The position numbers and the translations under genes were made by a program. Of a stretch of 64,000 nt of DNA, positions 30 through 10,085 are shown piece after piece (positions within the stretch are counted from its first letter, which is position 1; every line of letters begins with the position of its first letter). Source of the DNA: Deltaproteobacteria bacterium (GTDB lineage: Bacteria > Myxococcota > JACPTQ01); NCBI GenBank assembly GCA_016192705.1, contig JACPTQ010000066.1, positions 1 to 64,000 on the forward strand, read 5' to 3'. The notes under the pieces are model-generated. The model had not been told where the DNA came from. It did no database searches and worked only from the letters and a program-made list of their open reading frames with translations.

Positions 30-479
30 TCAGAATGTCGCGCGACGATAGAAGCGAACCACAAGCATAAGTGGCCGATGGTAAAAGCGAGAGTACGGCG
101 AACAGGCGGCGATGACACGTCCGGCGAGCCTGCGAAATGGGACGGAACGCCCGCGTCGCTCGAGCGACGTTGCGCGCCCGAGAACGAGCGAAGGCGCGAC
201 TCGCAACGCGCCGCCATCGCACGCGTCTCCCTTGACAACAAAACCGGCGCCGTCGATTCCAATGATGCGGTGGAGTTGCCGAATCCGGTCGTCGGCAATC
301 AGAACCACGTCGCCAACACGGAACGAAAGTTCACCACGCGCAAGCGGTTCGAGCCACACGCGATCCCCTTGCCGAATCCATGGCTCCATGCTCGTTCCCG
401 CGACGACGATCGAAGTTCTGTCCCCACGCCGCAGCGTTTCAAGAACAACCGATTCAATCGCCCGCTGGCTTTCATTCAT
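30..479 (-). CDS. S24/S26-type signal-peptidase-like serine protease
   Basis: The 149-residue product has the S26 box with nucleophile Ser30 in AGTSMEPWIRQGDRV, followed by GDVVLI, the LHRIIG segment (His70) and VVKGDA (Lys83). Family knowledge: such short LexA/SipW-like peptidases occur in RiPP clusters beside HprK-like kinases and PqqD proteins, where they may remove leader or signal peptides. It has no obvious N-terminal membrane helix; the C-terminus is moderately hydrophobic (LMLVVRFY). The start ATG at 479 is divergent from the kinase start at 505, leaving only about 25 bases, so promoters must lie inside the genes. Its role in precursor processing is inferred. Confidence 0.8.
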   Translation of the reverse strand: MNESQRAIESVVLETLRRGDRTSIVVAGTSMEPWIRQGDRVWLEPLARGELSFRVGDVVLIADDRIRQLHRIIGIDGAGFVVKGDACDGGALRVAPSLVLGRATSLERRGRSVPFRRLAGRVIAACSPYSRFYHRPLMLVVRFYRRATF

Positions 480-504: not shown

Positions 505-1296
505 GTGGGCACGACCATCGTCGCAACCGACCTTCTCATCGGCGGCCTTGTCCACCGCGTCCCTTGGTCGCACGACGAAATCTCCGAAATCCTCGGCTCG
601 CATTATTTAGGCTTCGTCGCTCCCTTAACCGAATACGTCCCGGACGTGACGATTCGCCTCTCGTCCAACTTAGCGACTTCGCCCAACGAGCGCTTCCACG
701 ACGCGGCCGACGTACTGGACTGGTCCGGTCCGTTCGGAGCCGTTCGTCTCGACTTCGCACGTTCCGATTGCGCCCTCCTCTGCCTTAACCCGCAGCACAC
801 GTATTGGATTTTTCGGTTCATAACGGGCGCGCTTCTATCGCGCCACGCGGGTCTCCTCCTGCACGGCGCGGCGCTTGTCTTCAACGGCAGCGGTCACCTC
901 TATCTCGGACCCTCGGGCGCCGGGAAGTCGACCCTCGCCCGAGCCGTTGCCCTGCGCAAGGGCACGGTACTGGCCGATGACACGGTGATGGTTCGACTTG
1001 TCGATGGGCAGCCAGTGCTCTACGGGGCACCCTACACGGCGGAGGTAAAATGGATTGGTTGCGCGGCGTCTGCACCGCTCCGTTCGATACACCTTCTCGA
1101 TCGCACGGCGCCGCTCGGCCAGGTTCTTCTCTCGCCATCTCGTGCGACTTCCGTCCTCGTGCGGTCGCTATTTCTGAAGGTCGTCAGCGACCCGCTCAGA
1201 TCTAATTTTCTCGAGACCGCTAAACGACTCGCAGAATCGACCCCAATCGACCGCCTCTCTTACCGCCTCGACAATATCCCGTGGCCCCCGCCTTAA
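505..1296 (+). CDS. HPr-kinase-like ATPase, probable peptide kinase of the RiPP locus
   Basis: The 263-residue product has a P-loop GPSGAGKSTLA (residues 135-145), an upstream LLHGAAL with His120, and an acidic pair in LADDTV (158-159), the arrangement of the C-terminal HprK/Ser kinase domain. It lacks the N-terminal HPr-regulator domain. I chose GTG 505 because the open frame upstream (to 112) lies antisense to the S26 peptidase and reads as low-quality Arg/Ser-rich sequence. Related stand-alone kinases in lasso clusters (PadeK type) phosphorylate the C-terminal Ser of precursor peptides. Here the convergent neighbour encodes a peptide ending in a Ser/Thr-rich tail, so a peptide-kinase role is inferred. 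Confidence 0.75.
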   Translation: MGTTIVATDLLIGGLVHRVPWSHDEISEILGSHYLGFVAPLTEYVPDVTIRLSSNLATSPNERFHDAADVLDWSGPFGAVRLDFARSDCALLCLNPQHTYWIFRFITGALLSRHAGLLLHGAALVFNGSGHLYLGPSGAGKSTLARAVALRKGTVLADDTVMVRLVDGQPVLYGAPYTAEVKWIGCAASAPLRSIHLLDRTAPLGQVLLSPSRATSVLVRSLFLKVVSDPLRSNFLETAKRLAESTPIDRLSYRLDNIPWPPP

Positions 1297-1311
1297 CTCG
1301 AGACCGCCCGG

Positions 1312-1461
1312 CTACCCCGTACTTGGAGATGTTTGGCACTCCTCAAGGTCAATGCCGCAGTGACCGAGCACCACGAACTCGGTTTCGATTTTCTCTGTCA
1401 CAATCTCAGGCTTTTGCCACATCGGCCTCTCTACAATTCCGTCTTTCGTCTCAATATCCAT
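1312..1461 (-). CDS. Candidate RiPP precursor peptide, 49 aa
   Basis: ATG 1461 is preceded by a perfect AGGAGGG (1471-1465), which overlaps the TAG stop of the giant lipoprotein gene, so translation is probably coupled. The peptide has an acidic/basic leader carrying PMWQKPEIVTEKI (residues 13-25), the W/Y-x-K-P-E-hydrophobic pattern typical of leaders bound by PqqD-type domains. A short core follows with Cys35 and Cys42 in LGHCGIDLEEC and a tail containing Thr44, Ser45, Ser47 and Thr48. It is near PqqD, radical SAM/SPASM, HprK-like and S26 genes. The reading frame and ribosome site are visible; the RiPP role is inferred from context. The gene is easily missed by annotation pipelines. Confidence 0.75.
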   Translation of the reverse strand: MDIETKDGIVERPMWQKPEIVTEKIETEFVVLGHCGIDLEECQTSPSTG

Positions 1462-1465
1462 AATC

Positions 1466-1471
1466 CCTCCT
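1466..1471 (-). promoter_or_regulatory. Strong ribosome binding site of the precursor peptide
   Basis: AGGAGG on the minus strand lies four bases before ATG 1461. Its first base is within the TAG stop codon (1470-1472) of the upstream lipoprotein gene. It is one of the best Shine-Dalgarno matches in the window and supports a short coding sequence downstream. Confidence 0.75.
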
Positions 1472-4400
1472 AATACTTAACAAAAAACGACCCACTGCTC
1501 GCCGTCGTTGAAATCATGAAATCCCCAAATGGATCGTTATCCCAGCTAGTAACCTTCATCACCCATGTTCCGATCAACGATCCAACCGGGAACACCATCG
1601 TCACGTCTGGTTTCCCGCCGTTAACCACGCCGAACGGCACGCCGCCGTCCCCCGTCCCGTAATAAAAGAATGCGCCCCCCGCGTTGCCGCCAGCGAGCAG
1701 GTCGACTCGGCCGTCACCCGTAACATCGCCGACCCCGGCGAGACTCTGTCCCACGCTCCCCGCATCGCTTTCCGATCCAGCCAGCAAAAGGAGCGGCTGA
1801 TGCGTGTCGGACAGACAAAGCTCACTCGGCCAGGTGTTTCGCCCATAGACGATATAAATCCTGGCGTCGGCCCCTATCGCAAAATCGTCGCACGGCGTCG
1901 GGCTACAGGCTGCGCCAGAACTCCCCGAAACACGCCCGAGCCCTGCAATCGATTGCGCGAAATTCGGCACGTTGCCCCAGGTCGCCGCATAAGGCGCCTC
2001 GATACGAACGTCGGCTTGGTTGAGCGTGATTGTCGTGCCGACCATTGACGAAAACGACGATTTACCAAGGAAAACCCAGCCGCGGCCCGCATCCGCCGCC
2101 CCCCCGGACAGACTCGCAGACCGAATAAAGAAGTCTTGAATCCCGTCGCCGTTGACATCACCGATCGCCCCCGCGCCGAGGAACGAGCCGATTTCACTGA
2201 CGTTCGGCGCCCCTGGAGTACCGCAAACCGTCGCCGAGGTGTCGGTCCCGTTGATTGTGATCATCCCGCTGGGTCCGATGCGCGCAACAACGCCCGGGGA
2301 CGGCATCGGGGGCCGCTTGCATTCTGGAAGCGACGGGTTGCCGCCGCAGTCCCCTGCGTCGTGCGGTGAACGGGAGGGCCCAAGCCACAGAGACGCTTGT
2401 CCCGAGAATCCACCGTCCTTGGCCTTCGATTCGACGAAGAGCACGTCGGGGACTCCGTCGCCAGTGACGTCACCGAGGGGACGGACAAACAAGGTTCGGG
2501 CGTACGCCGTTTCGCTAAGCTGTGGATTCAAATCGAACCGTACCGGGCTTCCGGCGATGGCGGTCCCATTGGGACCGTATACAAGACCCGCGTCCGACCC
2601 GTAGTAGAGGAACGCCGTTCTCGTCGCTCCGACACCAGCGGTCGTGTTGTTGGTCGCTATCAGAAGGTCGTCGAATCCATCGCCGTCCATGTCGCCAGCA
2701 TTCGCAATCGACTGACCAAACTTTGTAAGCGTCGGGTCGACCCAGAGCGGTGCCGTCAGCGTCTGCATTCCGCCATCGTTGCCCCAAACGATGAAAACCG
2801 AGGCGTCGACCGTCGGATTCTGGTTGAACGCGATGTCGGTGTACCCATCGCCATTGAAATCGCCGGTCGCCATTCGCTGTCCCATGCCCAACGAGCCGGG
2901 ATCCGTCAACGGTCCGTAGACCCGGTCTTCGCGCAGCTGCGTGTTCACAGACACCACTTGGATCGGCGCCGACGTCGACCGGTTCCCCGCGGTGTCAGCG
3001 GCCTCCGTAGCGAAGCAGTACGTGCTTTCCAGGATGAGCCCCGTGACACTCGCGTCCGTTGGTGTTCCTCCAGCCAGAGGCGGCGCCTTCGGGAATCCCG
3101 AAATCGACGCGCCACCGTCGATAACACCAGCATCCTCGACAACAAACGGGCACAACGACCCAACCGCCATTCGCGACGACACCTTGATGTCGAACGACTG
3201 CGCCGTCCCCGACATCCCGTTATCGCCAGGATAGGTCCACGCGAGCGCGACCGTTCCCGCGCGCCGATTGACCGACGCGTCGAGCTGAACGTCCGTGGGC
3301 GCCGTGACGTCGACGTTGACCTGGCACTGCACCGACGCGGGGTTCCCAACGAGGTCCGTCACCGAGGCGGTGAGCGTCTGCGATCCCTCGCTGACGGTCA
3401 GAAGCGGCATGGTCACATAGGTCGATACAACCGTTCCCGTGCCGACGACCCCTTGCGTGCTCCCGGTGAGCGTTAGCGTTTGCCCATCTTCAATCCCTGG
3501 TGTCTGGAACTTGAAGACGTACTGCAATCCCGCCGTCCCGGAGCTGACGTCTGAATACTTGTTGAGCGTGACCGGCTGCGACGTGCAGACCGGGCTATCA
3601 AACACGGGATTGCCAGGCGCCGACACATCGACCGACCAATTCAAGAATGCGCTGTACCCGGCGTCTGCCGTTGAATCAACGACCCTGGCCTGGAAAGTTC
3701 CGATTTCCGCGTCGTTCAGAGTCAACGCGCCGATCCCCGCAAACGTAACCGCGCCTCCCGACAAGTTCCCGGTGGCGATCGCACCGCCATCCTTATAGAG
3801 CGTGACGCAGTTGTCCGAACACGACGTGTAGCTCGAGGAAACCTTGACGGAGACCGCGATCGTCCCTCCATCCACCGTGCCGCACCCAGTTCCGCCATAG
3901 ACGAGCGGTTGCGCGATTTCCGGGTTGCAGTTGTTCGGAGTCGAGCCCGTCGGCTTCACAAAGCTCACCGTCGGACCAGATCCCGTGACGGTCAAATCGT
4001 ACACGGCACTTGTTGTGCAGTTGCCGATCGTGTCGCACCCATACGCGACCAATTTATTCGGACCTGCCGACAAATTGACGCGCAGCACGTCCGGCGAACC
4101 GCCATCAAACACCTTTGATCCAACGGCACTGTAAGTCGTGCCGCCATTGGTCGATGAACGTATGGAGATGGTGCGTCCAGTTTCAATACTCGACGCCGAA
4201 AATACGACGTCGCTCTGGATCCCGGGCGCCGTAAGGTCAACATCGGATGTCGGCGAAGCCGGTCCCGTAACGGCGAACGCGGGGCCGACCGTGTCGATGG
4301 TCACATTGACCGGTGTGGATGTGCACGTGTTGCCGGAAAGGTCCGTCACTTGGATGGTCAGCGCGCTGTTCCCCTGGGCGAGCACGACCGGGATGTTGGG

Positions 4401-5120
4401 CGCCGCTCCACCGGTCATCGCTCCCGAGCCGATAACGCCGCCATCGTCGCGAACATATACGATTTGGCCGTTTTCAGCGCCCGTGACCGTCGACTGAACC
4501 GTGTAGCTCATCGACTGTCCGGCGTCGGTACAGCCACCGGGTGGTGATTCGTTGTCGGTGCATTTCAAGTAGCCCGCAGATGGCCGCGTGATGTAGCAAG
4601 TCGGAGCGGCCGTATCGACCGTGAACGACAGCGTCGCGCCACCCGAAATGGCGTTCCCATCACCCGTGCCGCACGCGTTATCGGTTCCGGCTGCAGACAG
4701 CGTGTGGGCGCCCGATTGGAGCGAAATCGGAACGGTTGCTGTTGCGCCGCTGAGGGGCGCCGATCCAACCGTCGTGCCAGCCTGCGGGTTTGTCGACTTG
4801 ATGCTGATCGTTTTGCCGCTCGCACTCGTGTCGGACAAGGTTACGGTGCATGAGGTCGACGTTTTGTTGATAACACCGCCGTCCATTTCGGGACAGACAA
4901 TCGAGGAAACCGTTGGCGGCACGGTGTCGAGCGTGACCTGCCGCGGATTGGCTGTTGTTCCCACATTTTGCGCCTGTGTTCGGTACCGCCCGCAGAAGGT
5001 GAATGCTCCCGCGTCGAGCGCCGTGCTGGACGAGCTCGACCGTCCCTCCGCTCGCCGTCGCGAGGAACCAACGGAACTCATGGGTAAGCGGCGCCGAGCC
5101 TGGATTCTTCGCGTTCGCAC
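1470..5120 (-). CDS. Giant Ig-repeat/FG-GAP lipoprotein, C-terminal part (after frameshift)
   Basis: This frame continues the protein that starts at 8580; the meaningful part begins near 5031. It holds further bacterial Ig-like repeats, each opening with a V(T)xDxxxP motif such as VTLDTVPPTVSSIVCP, FTVDTAAPTCYITRP and VNVDVTAPTDV. Next comes a fibronectin-like segment (GTVALAWTYPGD). The last 480 or so residues are an FG-GAP/integrin-type beta-propeller with five calcium loops: GDFNGDGYTD, GDMDGDGFDD, GDVTGDGVPD, GDVNGDGIQD and GDVTGDGRVD. The first 30 residues of this open frame (Arg/Ser-rich) are out-of-frame noise. The gene ends with TAG overlapping the ribosome site of the 49-aa peptide gene. 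Confidence 0.8.
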   Translation of the reverse strand: MRTRRIQARRRLPMSSVGSSRRRAEGRSSSSSTALDAGAFTFCGRYRTQAQNVGTTANPRQVTLDTVPPTVSSIVCPEMDGGVINKTSTSCTVTLSDTSASGKTISIKSTNPQAGTTVGSAPLSGATATVPISLQSGAHTLSAAGTDNACGTGDGNAISGGATLSFTVDTAAPTCYITRPSAGYLKCTDNESPPGGCTDAGQSMSYTVQSTVTGAENGQIVYVRDDGGVIGSGAMTGGAAPNIPVVLAQGNSALTIQVTDLSGNTCTSTPVNVTIDTVGPAFAVTGPASPTSDVDLTAPGIQSDVVFSASSIETGRTISIRSSTNGGTTYSAVGSKVFDGGSPDVLRVNLSAGPNKLVAYGCDTIGNCTTSAVYDLTVTGSGPTVSFVKPTGSTPNNCNPEIAQPLVYGGTGCGTVDGGTIAVSVKVSSSYTSCSDNCVTLYKDGGAIATGNLSGGAVTFAGIGALTLNDAEIGTFQARVVDSTADAGYSAFLNWSVDVSAPGNPVFDSPVCTSQPVTLNKYSDVSSGTAGLQYVFKFQTPGIEDGQTLTLTGSTQGVVGTGTVVSTYVTMPLLTVSEGSQTLTASVTDLVGNPASVQCQVNVDVTAPTDVQLDASVNRRAGTVALAWTYPGDNGMSGTAQSFDIKVSSRMAVGSLCPFVVEDAGVIDGGASISGFPKAPPLAGGTPTDASVTGLILESTYCFATEAADTAGNRSTSAPIQVVSVNTQLREDRVYGPLTDPGSLGMGQRMATGDFNGDGYTDIAFNQNPTVDASVFIVWGNDGGMQTLTAPLWVDPTLTKFGQSIANAGDMDGDGFDDLLIATNNTTAGVGATRTAFLYYGSDAGLVYGPNGTAIAGSPVRFDLNPQLSETAYARTLFVRPLGDVTGDGVPDVLFVESKAKDGGFSGQASLWLGPSRSPHDAGDCGGNPSLPECKRPPMPSPGVVARIGPSGMITINGTDTSATVCGTPGAPNVSEIGSFLGAGAIGDVNGDGIQDFFIRSASLSGGAADAGRGWVFLGKSSFSSMVGTTITLNQADVRIEAPYAATWGNVPNFAQSIAGLGRVSGSSGAACSPTPCDDFAIGADARIYIVYGRNTWPSELCLSDTHQPLLLLAGSESDAGSVGQSLAGVGDVTGDGRVDLLAGGNAGGAFFYYGTGDGGVPFGVVNGGKPDVTMVFPVGSLIGTWVMKVTSWDNDPFGDFMISTTASSGSFFVKY

Positions 5121-8100
5121 TGCAGTAGTAAGCCGGGGACGTCAACGGTGTGGTCCAGTCAATCGATGGCTCAGTCAAATTGATGGTGACACCGATCGCC
5201 GTCGACGCAGCATTCCCCGCCACGTCAGACGCCGAAGCCGACAAGATGACGACGCCCGAATCGGGCACGTTGAGGGCGACGTTTGCGAACGTGACCGTTG
5301 AGGCTCCGGCATCATTTACGGTCGCCGTTCCAACGAAGAGGTTTCCGCCGTCGGTCGACGTGCCATCGGTTTTCATGAGCGTCACTTGCCGACCCGGCTC
5401 TAGCCCCGAAACCGCGAGCGTTACATTCTCGTCAAATGTTCCATTCGTCGAGTTGTGGTCATCGCCCTTGACAAGGATTTGGTCGAGCGTCGGGTGTGTG
5501 AACGTGAGCGTCGGCGCCTTGCGATCAACGAGCACCGAAATCGGCGTTCCAGACGCGCCGGCATCAAGTCGATTCTTCGCTTCGACAAAAAGGACGCTTG
5601 CATTCTGATCGGGAAGCGTCACGCGCGCGAACAAAACACCGCCGTCCGACACTTCGACCTGTTCCGTGTAAATGAGGGGCGCGCCGCTGTCGGGTGATAC
5701 GGTGAGCTTCACCGATTGACCAACGTCAACCCCTGTAAGGGCCACAAACGCTGTCTGTTGGAAATCCGCCAGACCATCGATGTCACCCGCGTCCGCGTTG
5801 AAAACGGCACCATTCGGCGGCGAGACGATTGTGTAATTGGGGCCACCATCCCCGTAGGCGACGAGCGAGTAAGTCCGTGAGCGGCCCCCCGAGGTTGAAG
5901 TCGCAAACAGCTGATAGGCACCCTCCGTTGCGAGCGTGATCGCCGCCGTGGCGCTGCAAGCAACCGCGTTCGACGTCGAGCTTGGCCCCGTCGCGAAAAC
6001 CGTGCACCCCTCGCCGCCGCCCGCATCAGCAATCGAGAACGTCACCGCATGGCTCGGCCCCGAAGGCACCGCAAGCCCATCGACCGCTGCGACGCCCGCA
6101 AAGGTCGCGATCGACAACACCGGGAAAGGTCCGCCGTCCGACAGATCGACGTTGAGGGACATCTGGGTCGACGTGGCGTTTTTCGCGCAATCCGTAACCG
6201 TTGCGGTCAAGGGGTTGCCGCCGTGCGCCAACTCAACGTTCGTAAACGTCGCTTTTCCGTCCGCCCCGATGGCCAGCGGGCCCATGGCCAGGAAAGTCCC
6301 AACGCGCAGCGTCGCGAACGACGTCGTCGGCTCACCGCCATCCGTGCTGACAACGATTGTGTAGTGGAAACCACCATCGCCCGGCGTCGCATTGTCGGCC
6401 GCTGTGAGGCTCGCCGGCAGCGCCGTTCCATTCGCGCGCTCAAAGAGCGGCGTCGACGGTCCCGCGTCATCGTGCGTGAGCGCAATCGAAACACTCGCAT
6501 CGTTCCCCGCAAGGTCGACGACACTCGCCGACAAGTTGTTTAGCTGGTTTCCCGCAAGTGGCACGGACGTCACGCATGCGCCTCCGCTGTCATTGACAGT
6601 TCCTGTCGCGCCATTAACGGTCAGCGTGCGCCCCTCTTCCGCGGTCACGTTGAAACAAAGCGTCGGCGCTGCATTCGAAACGCACGACCCCGGAGCCGGT
6701 GACGTCATCGAAATTGTCGGCGTCGAGACGTCAACTGAAACCGCCACGGATTCGCTAAAATAAACCGCGTCGTTGGCATTACCGGGACTACCCACGACAA
6801 GCCGGAGCGTATGATTGCCCGGCGGAAGCGCGACGTTGCGCAGCGCCCCGCTGAAGGTGCCGCCGTCAATTTCGCAGTCTTGCGCGGCCGTTGTTGGGCA
6901 CGCCGATTTGTCACTCGAACAATCGCACTGCGAAACGCCACCATTGACAAGCAGGCGAACCTTCCGGCCCGACAGCGATCCAGCCGTGTACGGAACGTTG
7001 AGCTCAAGAAGATTTGGTGTGCCGCTCGGATCGAGGTCGTCCGACTTCTTGTACGCTTTTCCTGCGAGCGCCGACGAAATCGCGATGTAGGCCGTGAGCG
7101 GATCGTAGTTAAGGACGTAGTCGGTGGGCGAAGCGGTCGACGAGTAGGTCGATGCCGCGTTGCCGGTTGGATCGGTCGCGACGATGCGAATCCGGTTTTC
7201 GCCGACCGAAAGGGGCACGCACGGGAAAGAGTACGACTGCGAGCCGCCGGTCAGCGTTCGATATCCCGCGTCCCCATTCTCGGTACCCGCCGTTGGGAGC
7301 GAGCCTTTGAACAAGGTCACCGCTAGAACCTCGCCCGCCGACCCGCTCACGCTGGCCGAAATGTTGTAGCTCGCGCCCGCGTCAGCACACTCCGCGGGAA
7401 TCTTTGTGGGGTCGAGTGATGTCGTCCGCACGCCCTCCAGAGGGGTGACCATGGTTATCGTCGGCGATGTGATGTCGACCGAGACCGCCGACGTTGACGC
7501 GTCCGGCGTTTGCTGCCCAACAACGCACGCGACCAACGTGTGCGCGCCCTCGTTCAACGTCGTGTTCGAAAAGACCGCCGTGAAACCCGACGGGCCAGCA
7601 TCGACACCCGCAGACGCGGACGCTCCGGCATCGGCCGCCGTCACGCAGTTCGTCACGCCGCCGGTCGGGTCGACCCAGAGAAACGCGGTCCCCGGGCACC
7701 CGCTTGTGACGACGACGTCAAGTTGCAGCCCCGCGTCACCGCTCTTGTCGTCTTTCTTCCCAAGCTTTGCGTTGTTGGCTGGCGTGAGCGCGACGGTGCA
7801 GACGCCACTGACGGTCACGGTGATCTGCTTCGAGTAAGTTGTTTGTCCAACCGTTGCGGAAGCTGTGAGTGTATCCGTGCCATCCGGGAATGACGGAACG
7901 GGGCTCGCGAACGTCGCTTCAACGTAACTTCCTGAGAGCGCCGCAATCGCCGTGTAGGTCTGGCTGTAACTGAGGCCCACATTCGCGAGGACAAGTTGAA
8001 TCGTTTGGCCATCGCCAATGTTGCAAGCGCGAACCGTGATGCGCTTTTGAAGGAGCGGCGCGATCGGGTCTTCGTCGTCACCGGCTCCCGCATCACCCGA

Positions 8101-8580
8101 TGACGTCAACGTCGCGCCGTCCGACGGGGATACAAATGTGAGCCCCTCTTTCGCGCCAACTTGAACTGTCACTTGGTTCGCCGCGCTCGTCCCTTGAATG
8201 GCAACGGTTATCTTATAGTTCGTTGAATTCTCAGGAACCGTTACGCCGCCAAATGTAACGCAAGCGGCGTCCGACCCCGCATCTCCCGTGCAGGCGCCTG
8301 ATATATCTTTAACAATGACGGCGGTCGCATCATCGCCCAAATAGAGCGCCAGTTTTTGCCCGGCCGCTGCGCCCGTCACCTGAACCCGAATGTCGATTTG
8401 GATTCCCTGCAACGTCGCGTTCACGTCGTCGCAACCGTCTAGGATTCGTCCGCTGGAGGGCGACAGAATAACGACCGTCGGTGCACCCGGCTTGTCGTCC
8501 GAACACGAACAGGAGGGCGCACCGCCTCCGATAACAAGCGCCGTCAAGAGCGCCAACTTGGCCTTCACCGGTCGTCTCAT
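4678..8580 (-). CDS. Giant Ig-repeat lipoprotein, N-terminal part (before frameshift)
   Basis: ATG 8580 is chosen over the upstream in-frame ATG because it starts a lipoprotein signal (MRRPVKAKLALLTALVIGG, then Ala-Pro-Ser-Cys). After a short Cys/Asp-rich segment come about a dozen Ig-like domains of roughly 100 residues with recurring openings (VSVDITSPTITMVTP, VSVDVSTPTISMTSP, VLVDRKAPTLTFTHP, VTINLTEPSIDWTTP). The sense frame ends near 5031; the remaining residues to 4678 are out-of-frame. Joined with the 1470-5120 frame, the full protein would be about 2370 residues, an outer-membrane-anchored surface protein. It sits between the radical SAM gene and the precursor gene on the same strand. 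Confidence 0.8.
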   Translation of the reverse strand: MRRPVKAKLALLTALVIGGGAPSCSCSDDKPGAPTVVILSPSSGRILDGCDDVNATLQGIQIDIRVQVTGAAAGQKLALYLGDDATAVIVKDISGACTGDAGSDAACVTFGGVTVPENSTNYKITVAIQGTSAANQVTVQVGAKEGLTFVSPSDGATLTSSGDAGAGDDEDPIAPLLQKRITVRACNIGDGQTIQLVLANVGLSYSQTYTAIAALSGSYVEATFASPVPSFPDGTDTLTASATVGQTTYSKQITVTVSGVCTVALTPANNAKLGKKDDKSGDAGLQLDVVVTSGCPGTAFLWVDPTGGVTNCVTAADAGASASAGVDAGPSGFTAVFSNTTLNEGAHTLVACVVGQQTPDASTSAVSVDITSPTITMVTPLEGVRTTSLDPTKIPAECADAGASYNISASVSGSAGEVLAVTLFKGSLPTAGTENGDAGYRTLTGGSQSYSFPCVPLSVGENRIRIVATDPTGNAASTYSSTASPTDYVLNYDPLTAYIAISSALAGKAYKKSDDLDPSGTPNLLELNVPYTAGSLSGRKVRLLVNGGVSQCDCSSDKSACPTTAAQDCEIDGGTFSGALRNVALPPGNHTLRLVVGSPGNANDAVYFSESVAVSVDVSTPTISMTSPAPGSCVSNAAPTLCFNVTAEEGRTLTVNGATGTVNDSGGACVTSVPLAGNQLNNLSASVVDLAGNDASVSIALTHDDAGPSTPLFERANGTALPASLTAADNATPGDGGFHYTIVVSTDGGEPTTSFATLRVGTFLAMGPLAIGADGKATFTNVELAHGGNPLTATVTDCAKNATSTQMSLNVDLSDGGPFPVLSIATFAGVAAVDGLAVPSGPSHAVTFSIADAGGGEGCTVFATGPSSTSNAVACSATAAITLATEGAYQLFATSTSGGRSRTYSLVAYGDGGPNYTIVSPPNGAVFNADAGDIDGLADFQQTAFVALTGVDVGQSVKLTVSPDSGAPLIYTEQVEVSDGGVLFARVTLPDQNASVLFVEAKNRLDAGASGTPISVLVDRKAPTLTFTHPTLDQILVKGDDHNSTNGTFDENVTLAVSGLEPGRQVTLMKTDGTSTDGGNLFVGTATVNDAGASTVTFANVALNVPDSGVVILSASASDVAGNAASTAIGVTINLTEPSIDWTTPLTSPAYYCSANAKNPGSAPLTHEFRWFLATASGGTVELVQHGARRGSIHLLRAVPNTGAKCGNNSQSAAGHARHRAANGFLDCLSRNGRRCYQQNVDLMHRNLVRHECERQNDQHQVDKPAGWHDGWIGAPQRRNSNRSDFAPIGRPHAVCSRNR

Positions 8581-8634
8581 CCCATCACCCCACGAAAACA
8601 ACACTGGGCTTTATCCTCATCTTCATCCAGCCAC

Positions 8635-8732
8635 CTTAAAGGTCGGGTTCGGGCTCCGTTCCGTCGCCCTCCCCATTTTCGCCGCGCTGACGACCCACTG
8701 GGTCGTCAGCCATTGCGGCGAAAATTGGAAGC
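8635..8732 (+). repeat. Structured palindromic repeat, copy 1
   Basis: The element begins TTAAAGGTCGGGTTCGGGCTC, has a GGGC/GCCC hairpin, then an outer stem ATTTTCGCCGC (from 8685) paired with GCGGCGAAAAT (ending near 8727) that encloses a perfect inner hairpin GCTGACGACCCA / TGGGTCGTCAGC. The same architecture with different stem sequences recurs at 31344 and 62063. This copy covers the 3' end of the radical SAM gene, including its stop codon. Confidence 0.75.
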
Positions 8733-9775
8733 CGCCGCTTGTGCTCCTCGACGGCCAGCCGTTTGGCGTTCGATTGTTCGCACATCGACGCCGTCGGCGA
8801 AAGCAGCGTTTTTGTCACCTGCCATGAGTTCGCCATGCAAAAACTACAATACTTTGCGTTTTCGCACCGTTTGCAGTCTTCACGGTCCTTTCTCGCTATC
8901 TCGCGTATCTGCTTCAGAACGTCTGAACTCCTCCAAATATCAGCGAGCGGTCTTTGTCGAACATTGCCTGCCGAAAGGCCACCCATGAGCGCACACCCCT
9001 GAACATCGCCGATCGGGTTGATGTAAACGGTCGACCGCGCCGCGCCGCAATTGGCGCTGTCGTCAAATTTCGCGGCCGGCGCTTTGGCGAGCGCGTAGAG
9101 CGTCGACTCGTTCCACGGCTCGAGATAAACGTTCGGCAGCTCGCACGACGGTGTCGCCACGGAAAGCGTGTGCAGCTCGCCGCTGTAGGTCGGCTGGATC
9201 TGCGGCGAAATCTTGATCGGGATTTTTCGCGACTTGGCGAAGTCGGTGAGTTCTTTGGTGGAACCAAAATTGTATCGCGTCACGGGGCAGGCAAGCACAA
9301 CGCGAACGCCCGCCGCAACAAGAAGGTCGATGGCGTGAAGTGACTTTGCGTGCGAACCCGGAACGCGCGTAATTTTCTCGTGAACGCACGGGTCGATCGA
9401 ATAAAAGCTGATCTGCACTTCACTCACATGCCGCGCGAGCAGCATCGCAACGCGCGCTTCGTCGATGAAATTGCCGTGTGTGTAAAGCTTCGTGCAAAAC
9501 CGCAAGCGATCGGCGGCGGCAAGAATGTCGTCGAGGTCTTTTCGTAAAAAAACTTCGCCCCCTGAAAGCGTCAGGAAAAGTGTGCCGAGCGCCGCGAGGT
9601 CTTCGAGGACCTTGACCACTTCCACGGTCGACAACTCGGTGCCGCCGAATTGCGATGGGAGAATGCAGTGCTCGCAGATGAAGTTGCAGCGGTAGGTCGT
9701 ATCGATGTGCGCCGAGATCGGTACGTTGAGCGCACGCGCCTTCTGTGAGATGGCTTGGAGCGGCGTCATGGGCAT
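8636..9775 (-). CDS. Radical SAM/SPASM domain peptide-modifying enzyme
   Basis: The 379-residue product carries the radical SAM cluster motif CNFICEHC (Cys30, Cys34, Cys37) and the SAM-binding LSGGE (residues 70-74). Its SPASM domain has seven cysteines in canonical spacing (243, 261, 301, 304, 310, 313, 332). SPASM enzymes use extra 4Fe-4S clusters to install thioether or C-C crosslinks or to epimerise residues in RiPP precursors. It starts four bases after the PqqD gene, the usual coupling of leader-binding partner and enzyme. The last 31 or so residues (349-379, Glu/Gly/Pro-rich) are encoded by a palindromic repeat and are probably not part of the native fold. The substrate is inferred to be the 49-aa peptide. 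Confidence 0.9.
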   Translation of the reverse strand: MPMTPLQAISQKARALNVPISAHIDTTYRCNFICEHCILPSQFGGTELSTVEVVKVLEDLAALGTLFLTLSGGEVFLRKDLDDILAAADRLRFCTKLYTHGNFIDEARVAMLLARHVSEVQISFYSIDPCVHEKITRVPGSHAKSLHAIDLLVAAGVRVVLACPVTRYNFGSTKELTDFAKSRKIPIKISPQIQPTYSGELHTLSVATPSCELPNVYLEPWNESTLYALAKAPAAKFDDSANCGAARSTVYINPIGDVQGCALMGGLSAGNVRQRPLADIWRSSDVLKQIREIARKDREDCKRCENAKYCSFCMANSWQVTKTLLSPTASMCEQSNAKRLAVEEHKRRLPIFAAMADDPVGRQRGENGEGDGTEPEPDL

Positions 9776-9779
9776 CGGG

Positions 9780-10085
9780 TCACCCCCCTCCCTTCACCAG
9801 GACGCCCCGCGAGACCATCTCCGTCATGAGGTCGTCCACGTCTCGAAGAATCGCGTCGGGCGCCCCGCTAAACTCGGCCGTCAGCGTCGCCACAATCTCA
9901 TCGGTGGTCTTATCATTGAGCACAAGTTCCAAAATCCGCGTCGCAGTTCCGTTCAGGCGATGCGTCAATGCACCATCGCGCGTTATGAGAAAAGCTTCGC
10001 CGCCGATTTTCCGCCACGCGATGTCCGGGCTAAGTTCATAGCGACACCGACTCGCCGACGCTTGCGTTTTCTCACCCACCATCAT
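9780..10085 (-). CDS. PqqD-family RiPP leader-binding protein
   Basis: The 101-residue product matches the PqqD/RRE fold pattern: an N-terminal strand RYELSPDIAWRKIGGEAFLI, then LTHRLNGTATRILELVLNDKTTDEIVATLTAEF, and a C-terminal helix ending LMTEMVSRGVLVK. PqqD proteins bind the leader of a precursor peptide and present it to the radical SAM enzyme. The gene is immediately upstream of that enzyme. Two consecutive ATG codons (10085, 10082) could start it; GAAGG lies just upstream. It is not part of a PQQ operon: pqqA, pqqB and pqqC are absent. Confidence 0.85.
   Translation of the reverse strand: MMVGEKTQASASRCRYELSPDIAWRKIGGEAFLITRDGALTHRLNGTATRILELVLNDKTTDEIVATLTAEFSGAPDAILRDVDDLMTEMVSRGVLVKGGG

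Follow-up and report, generated by a model that had tools for sequence, protein, structure and literature searches.

The window (the whole stretch of 64,000 nucleotides analysed here) opens with a RiPP gene set that is both real and recurrent and that adds a radical SAM protein and a giant lipoprotein to the theme known from LPP and paeninodin. The genes, their joint recurrence, intact catalytic residues and a conserved C-terminal Ser/Thr in relatives are observed directly, and many other bacteria have related gene sets. We read the locus as probably of the phosphorylated, RRE-guided RiPP kind, with the PqqD, radical SAM, kinase and S26 proteins acting on a 49-aa peptide.

Genes of the locus and the HprK-like kinase

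On the minus strand, the order is PqqD, radical SAM/SPASM, giant Ig-like/FG-GAP gene and 49-aa peptide. The kinase, located on the plus strand, opposes them and stands back to back with the S26-type gene. The features are as follows.

30-479, minus strand: S26/archaeal-type signal-peptidase-like protein, 149 aa, candidate for leader removal (TIGR02228, Pfam S26, SM..LHR..GD motif)
505-1296, plus strand: HprK-like peptide kinase, start codon uncertain (catalytic residues and spacing as in BsfK)
1312-1461, minus strand: precursor peptide, 49 aa, stop codon included (precursor profile built without the window; ribosome site)
1402-1419, minus strand: W15-x-x-P18-x-I20, candidate RRE-binding leader motif (fits [Y/W]xxPx[L/V/I/A/F/Y] and the family alignment)
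1336-1359, minus strand: Cys35 and Cys42 (C-x6-C), putative target of the radical SAM, with predicted chemistry (spacing and position in relatives)
1315-1332, minus strand: tail T44 S45 P46 S47 T48 G49, candidate phosphorylation segment (Ser/Thr placement, termini of relatives)
1466-1471, minus strand: AGGAGG, ribosome site for the peptide, which overlaps the stop codon of the giant gene (sequence inspection)
1470-8604, minus strand, in frames 4678-8604 and 1470-5120: giant Ig-like (Big_13) and FG-GAP lipoprotein gene, frameshifted (Pfam, giants in relatives, lipobox-like N terminus)
8636-9775, minus strand: radical SAM/SPASM protein, 379 aa (PF04055, PF13186)
9780-10085, minus strand: PqqD-family RRE, 101 aa (PF05402)

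The window starts with base 1 of contig C58 in its genome, with the contig edge beside the S26 gene, so further genes of the cluster may be missing. The gene after PqqD is queA-like, and the 10 ORFs scanned at 10.5-24.75 kb (the other side being the contig edge) include no transporter, NTP transferase or lasso enzymes. Neither lasso cyclase nor B2 protease was found in the cluster or these 10 neighbouring ORFs, within the limit set by the contig edge at position 1.

The PqqD-family RRE scores over the PF05402 cut-off (44.5 bits), and no other PqqD was found in the genome (5.2 Mb, 96.65% complete). The radical SAM/SPASM protein (PF04055, 7e-16; PF13186, 1.4e-10) is mycofactocin/PqqE-like, with scores below the family cut-offs. 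It is the one close radical SAM in this genome, the second match being weak (6.9e-11); as a single query against the genome contigs it found nothing. Since the sole PqqD and the sole close radical SAM of the genome are located here, and a true HprK elsewhere (contig C52, 230 bits), the gene set very likely serves the 49-aa peptide. The single copies also support a shared role of radical SAM and kinase at this locus, in line with the sequence-only reading. The S26 protein matches TIGR02228 (sigpep_I_arch) at E 2.2e-8, below the cut-off, and Pfam S26 at 5.5e-4; within its SM..LHR..GD motif, Ser30, His70 and Asp84 were assigned by inspection. The analogous LppS uses S29/H68/D93, according to the available part of PMC13381572.

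A quick radical SAM tree groups the window with L170, L065, L111 and L112 (SH-aLRT 81), within a nine-member set supported at 95. The giant gene lies directly upstream of the peptide in all four, and L065, L111 and L112 have the kinase on the other strand, as does the window. Their peptides end in QGS, AVT, GQT and FQS, respectively. The 12-kb stretch of L170 has radical SAM, S26, giant gene and the QGS-ending peptide, and no kinase.

The kinase keeps its P-loop and acidic pair, as had been noted from the sequence. The P-loop GPSGAGKST (907-933) comprises residues 135-143 counted from GTG 505, a start codon that is uncertain and has no clear ribosome site; H120 is encoded at 862-864 and Asp158-Asp159 at 976-981. 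By our own mapping, H120-G135-G138-G140-K141-S142-D158-D159 correspond, at identical spacing, to the proven BsfK residues H148-G163-G166-G168-K169-S170-D186-D187 (given in the available text of PMC10368454). His120, Ser137, Gly140, Lys141, Thr143 and Pro176 are invariant in 31/31 kinase rows, and Gly135, Gly138 and Asp158 nearly so. An AlphaFold2 model (mean pLDDT 82) matches PEPCK and HprK/P structures.

Assignment to described families was rejected. Identity as an HPr kinase/phosphorylase falls short at 22.4 bits for TIGR00679 (cut-off 240) and 22.7 bits for Pfam Hpr_kinase_C (PF07475, cut-off 33.3), and membership in HprK_rel_A/B at scores that are all under the cut-offs (3.4e-6 for NCBIfam HprK_rel_B). 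The kinase had also been described as lacking an HPr-binding N-terminal half, which is doubtful. About 100 residues precede His120, in part at low confidence in the model (residues 55-91). The C-terminal catalytic domain of HprK/P binds HPr, so a missing N-terminal domain says little about HPr; the construct in 1kkl (“HprK/P in complex with HPr”, short chains) we take to be that domain. In the kinase tree, the paeninodin-type kinases form a separate clade (98/96) and the window kinase has no supported position, so its site preference is not readable from relatives. The kinase of L129, a Myxococcales contig, is identical to that of G131, which belongs to the window's phylum, Myxococcota.

Precursor peptides and their C-terminal residues

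A profile of 20 homologous precursors from other genomes, window excluded, ranked the 49-aa peptide first among 1441 window ORFs of at least 20 aa (E 0.0013, runner-up 0.57), which makes it more than a chance ORF. AGGAGG sits four bases ahead of its ATG. Used as a single query against 58 genomes, the peptide gave no credible homologue (the best other match had E 0.09), so its homology is visible only through the family profile; loci L039 and L040, fetched from this search, contain none of the four genes at profile threshold. A differently built profile, A3, gave 0 matches to the peptide on the window genome at E 0.01. Judged from these comparisons, the link to the precursor family is real but weak.

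W15xxPxI20 fits [Y/W]xxPx[I], the motif found in leaders of RRE-guided RiPPs; the available text of PMC13381572 describes [Y/W]xxPx as bound by discrete lasso and LPP RREs. The C-x6-C spacing is that of L065 and L112, and the position of the first Cys is common to the window peptide and most radical-SAM-linked precursors. The peptide is convergent with the kinase and contains Thr44, Ser45, Ser47 and Thr48, as previously stated, and it ends in SPSTG, with Gly as the terminal residue. Its other hydroxyl residues are Thr5, before the motif, and Thr22 and Thr27 (positions 8 and 13, with Trp as 1). No Ser/Thr lies between Thr27 and Thr44, and beyond Thr27 only the tail has any. Any phosphorylation of the core would therefore have to be in the tail, unless the leader ends before Thr27.

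In relatives, precursors were detected by motif or by profile. The last residue of radical-SAM-linked precursors is Ser (20) or Thr (2) in 22/28, window not counted (21/26 without L063, whose precursor is 3.7 kb from the kinase, and L170). The exceptions are Tyr (L050), Leu (L063), Pro (L074), Ala (L088), Gly (L127) and Cys (L132). Precursors without radical SAM have a terminal Ser/Thr in 3/18, a class that includes L055 and L126, with no radical SAM on the stretch (a contig end in L055) and peptides that look like the radical-SAM type. With divergent or split radical SAM, the count is 1/6. The difference between 22/28 and 3/18 gives a Fisher value of 5.5e-5, kinship uncorrected; counted by lineage, 11/15 are in majority Ser/Thr-ending. 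Profiles that included tail columns found nine of the 28 precursors, eight of them Ser/Thr-ending, and 14 of the 19 found by motif alone end likewise.

Residues just before the last one are not enriched. Ser/Thr occurs at -2 to -6 in 5, 2, 3, 3 and 2 of 28 precursors, and in 2 to 9 of 28 across -2 to -12; its share in the 20 residues before the C-terminal one is 0.138. A Ser/Thr-rich tail was rejected as a conserved feature; what is conserved is one C-terminal hydroxyl residue. The proposed alignment of tails thus supports the end residue and not the positions preceding it.

Another site differs between the classes. At positions 19-21 (motif Tyr as 1), approximately the place of the LPP site, Ser/Thr is present in 15/18 precursors without radical SAM vs 12/28 radical-SAM-linked ones. 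The window peptide has none there.

The tail table does not include L114 (weak kinase, without radical SAM; ends SSS), L154/L165 (giant, stretch cut, no kinase; end QSV), L155 and L163 (end PAG and AAG; no full set found), L157 and L161 (end HTS and VSS; no set found), further L080 peptides, and lasso or LPP precursors of L128, L133, L134 and L136.

In paeninodin-type lasso peptides, the kinases PadeK, ThcoK and PsmK use the C-terminal Ser of the precursor, and published C-terminal kinases require it, according to the available parts of two reviews (PMC9266682, PMC8498205). For the family studied here, C-terminal Ser phosphorylation of this type is likely. The window peptide lacks the terminal Ser, so at residue level Ser47/Thr48 is only a good guess here. 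The suggestion of precursor phosphorylation in the sequence-only reading is upheld for the precursor as substrate, by recurrence, the separate HprK and published work; a Ser/Thr-rich tail as a conserved trait is not, and the window peptide ends in Gly. We consider phosphorylation of the precursor itself to be well favoured, and its placement in the tail only slightly so.

Recurrence of the gene set and the giant lipoprotein gene

We annotated 100 sequences, window included, drawn from 195 genomes belonging to the phylum, from 15 named-organism loci and from seven stretches obtained via the peptide profile. Most were chosen for the presence of the kinase, and counts do not represent frequencies in nature. 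The kinase reaches at least 60 bits in 84 sequences (window included), of which 61 have PqqD, 63 the S26 protein and 24 all four genes. Kinase and a radical SAM of at least 200 bits are combined in 34 sequences including the window, and no precursor was found in 6 of these 34. Their pairing had been put forward as new; 33 other fetched loci hold both. Organisms with related loci include Nitrospirota, Planctomycetota, Chloroflexota and Bacillota. The gene set is not described in the literature on HprK/HPr kinase, FG-GAP, or Myxococcota with RiPP/radical SAM, as far as it was within reach (most subscription papers are outside it).

Several variants accompany this pattern. Eight Myxococcota loci (L048, L049, L052, L053, L054, L056, L057, L060) have PqqD - giant lipoprotein - peptide - kinase - S26 runs without radical SAM, and most of their peptides, which follow the pattern RSEKILVPDLFTPS, look like LPP precursors. 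In L080 and L113, one kinase is surrounded by two or three radical SAM genes; L080 contains several “KPELIVLVRG” peptides, and further peptides of this locus end in VAS and NPS. A divergent radical SAM subfamily (78-124 bits) occurs with the kinase in L047, L064, L077, L078 and L106, where tails are of the YGPxRexPRR type and the giant FG-GAP gene precedes the peptide in 5/5. Together with L065, where the radical SAM is broken into two frames, they were treated as a separate class.

The giant Ig/FG-GAP surface lipoprotein is a regular partner of the peptide locus. Scored as an ORF of more than 900 aa with FG-GAP motifs, it lies directly upstream of the precursor on the same strand in 24/52 relatives, at a gap of -25 to 77 bases (15 in the window). 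Big_13 and FG-GAP make-up is common to four giants scanned, and a lipobox-like signal is found at the N terminus of several. The window giant is split over two frames overlapping at 4678-5120, and relatives have one ORF; the split is either a frameshift or an assembly error. Of the 24 other giants, frame 1473-5120 matches 12 (E up to 1.1e-8) and frame 4678-8604 none at 1e-3.

Proposed processing, rival readings and known systems

In the processing we propose, PqqD would bind the W15xxPxI20 leader and hand the peptide to two enzymes that modify it. One, the radical SAM/SPASM protein, would act on the Cys-containing middle, probably at Cys35/Cys42; the other, the HprK-like kinase, would phosphorylate a hydroxyl of the tail, most likely on Ser47 or Thr48. 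As regards radical SAM RiPPs of the sactipeptide/ranthipeptide type, the locus shows the SPASM enzyme and the Cys residues, and a thioether or other cross-link would be a prediction. The S26 archaeal-type peptidase would then remove the leader. We infer the modified residues, the order of steps and the action of both enzymes on the window peptide in the organism. Points against this scheme are the terminal Gly of the window peptide, the unplaced kinase, the frameshifted giant and the miss by profile A3.

The kinase could instead modify a Ser/Thr near the leader-core junction, as LppK and BsfK do on core residue 3 (available parts of PMC13381572 and PMC10368454), and Ser/Thr in relatives without radical SAM is placed at 19-21, as in the LPP motif. 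In the window peptide only Thr27 would qualify, earlier than these positions and inside the likely leader, and radical-SAM-linked precursors have such a residue in fewer than half of cases, which makes this site unlikely here. HPr or another protein, such as the giant lipoprotein, would be the substrate if the peptide neighbourhood were incidental. Membership of the kinase in the HprK superfamily fits this; HPr was nevertheless rejected because the genome carries its separate HprK, and most relatives have a precursor gene next to the kinase, whether or not the giant is there, so that we rate such a substrate as very improbable. From this neighbourhood, the genome's own HprK and the published related kinases, the kinase very probably acts on the peptide precursor, not on HPr.

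The frameshifted giant may also mean that the locus is decaying, or that the assembly is wrong there. A decaying or rewired locus, in which the terminal Ser is lost and the kinase no longer modifies the peptide, would agree with the two overlapping frames, with Gly where most relatives have Ser/Thr, and with the contig start at the S26 gene. Yet the reading frames of kinase, radical SAM, PqqD, S26 and peptide are uninterrupted and their motifs intact, and a terminal Gly after Thr is also present in L127 (VTG), whose stretch has all but the S26 protein; decay is accordingly a doubtful explanation. Kinase action on the tail of the precursor remains our preferred reading.

Among described systems, the lpp cluster of Paenibacillus alginolyticus comprises an RRE, a kinase, an S26 leader peptidase and a [Y/W]xxP precursor, together with an NTP transferase and an MsbA-like transporter; its precursor motif is YxxPxVLxHQxIxFETxxS, with phosphorylated Ser, and LppK refuses Thr at its site (PMC13381572, available part). 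The window locus is similar in its discrete RRE, HprK-like kinase, archaeal-type S26 peptidase, [Y/W]xxPx leader and in that no lasso cyclase was seen. It differs by the radical SAM and the giant Ig/FG-GAP lipoprotein, by a peptide with W..P.I and without FETxxS or Ser at core position 3, and by no NTP transferase or MsbA-like transporter seen in the ORFs scanned up to the contig edge. The terms radical SAM, rSAM, SPASM and Myxococc are absent from the main text of PMC13381572. LPP-type precursors at L128 and L133 adjoin kinases found by the same kinase profile; in both, one from a Bacillus and one from a Paenibacillus, a single stretch carries LPP-type as well as lasso-type precursors, each paired with a kinase of its own.

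With the paeninodin type, the locus shares an HprK-like kinase, a PqqD-type RRE and, in most relatives, the conserved C-terminal Ser, whereas no B2 protease or lasso cyclase was seen and the window peptide ends in Gly. BsfK acts on core Ser3 of the bsf lasso peptide of Bradymonas sediminis, and an FG-GAP repeat protein that borders this cluster is presumed unrelated there (PMC10368454, available part), the one mention of such a neighbour that we found in print. Like the window locus, bsf thus has kinase residues at equal spacing and an FG-GAP neighbour; unlike it, bsf is a lasso cluster with its site at core Ser3. In phospeptin, a lanthipeptide-type domain carries out the phosphorylation, and the peptide is unrelated to the window system (PMC9259500, available part).

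The kinase-like ScmC matches 15/31 kinases of the set weakly. SynChlorMet membership was rejected, as matches to ScmC (TIGR04249) and ScmE/ScmF (TIGR04250/1) are all far below the NCBIfam cut-offs, and SynChlorMet is not named in the literature searched. In this cassette, whose make-up beyond the model names we presume, ScmC is joined with radical SAM proteins, so the pairing idea is not wholly new.

Tentatively, and with more doubt than trust, we suggest a widespread system in which a small peptide is radical-modified and end-phosphorylated, and made together with a giant lipoprotein that may display, anchor or sense it. Two layouts would differ in their use of the phosphate, with Ser/Thr just after the leader in the absence of radical SAM and a C-terminal Ser in its presence. 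Should both enzymes modify one precursor, the products would form a class of natural products in which radical peptide chemistry is combined with phosphorylation. The terminal Ser with radical SAM, vs its absence without, offers a direct test of site choice by HprK-like peptide kinases, and the frequent giant FG-GAP neighbour gives a first handle on the role of phosphorylated RiPPs.
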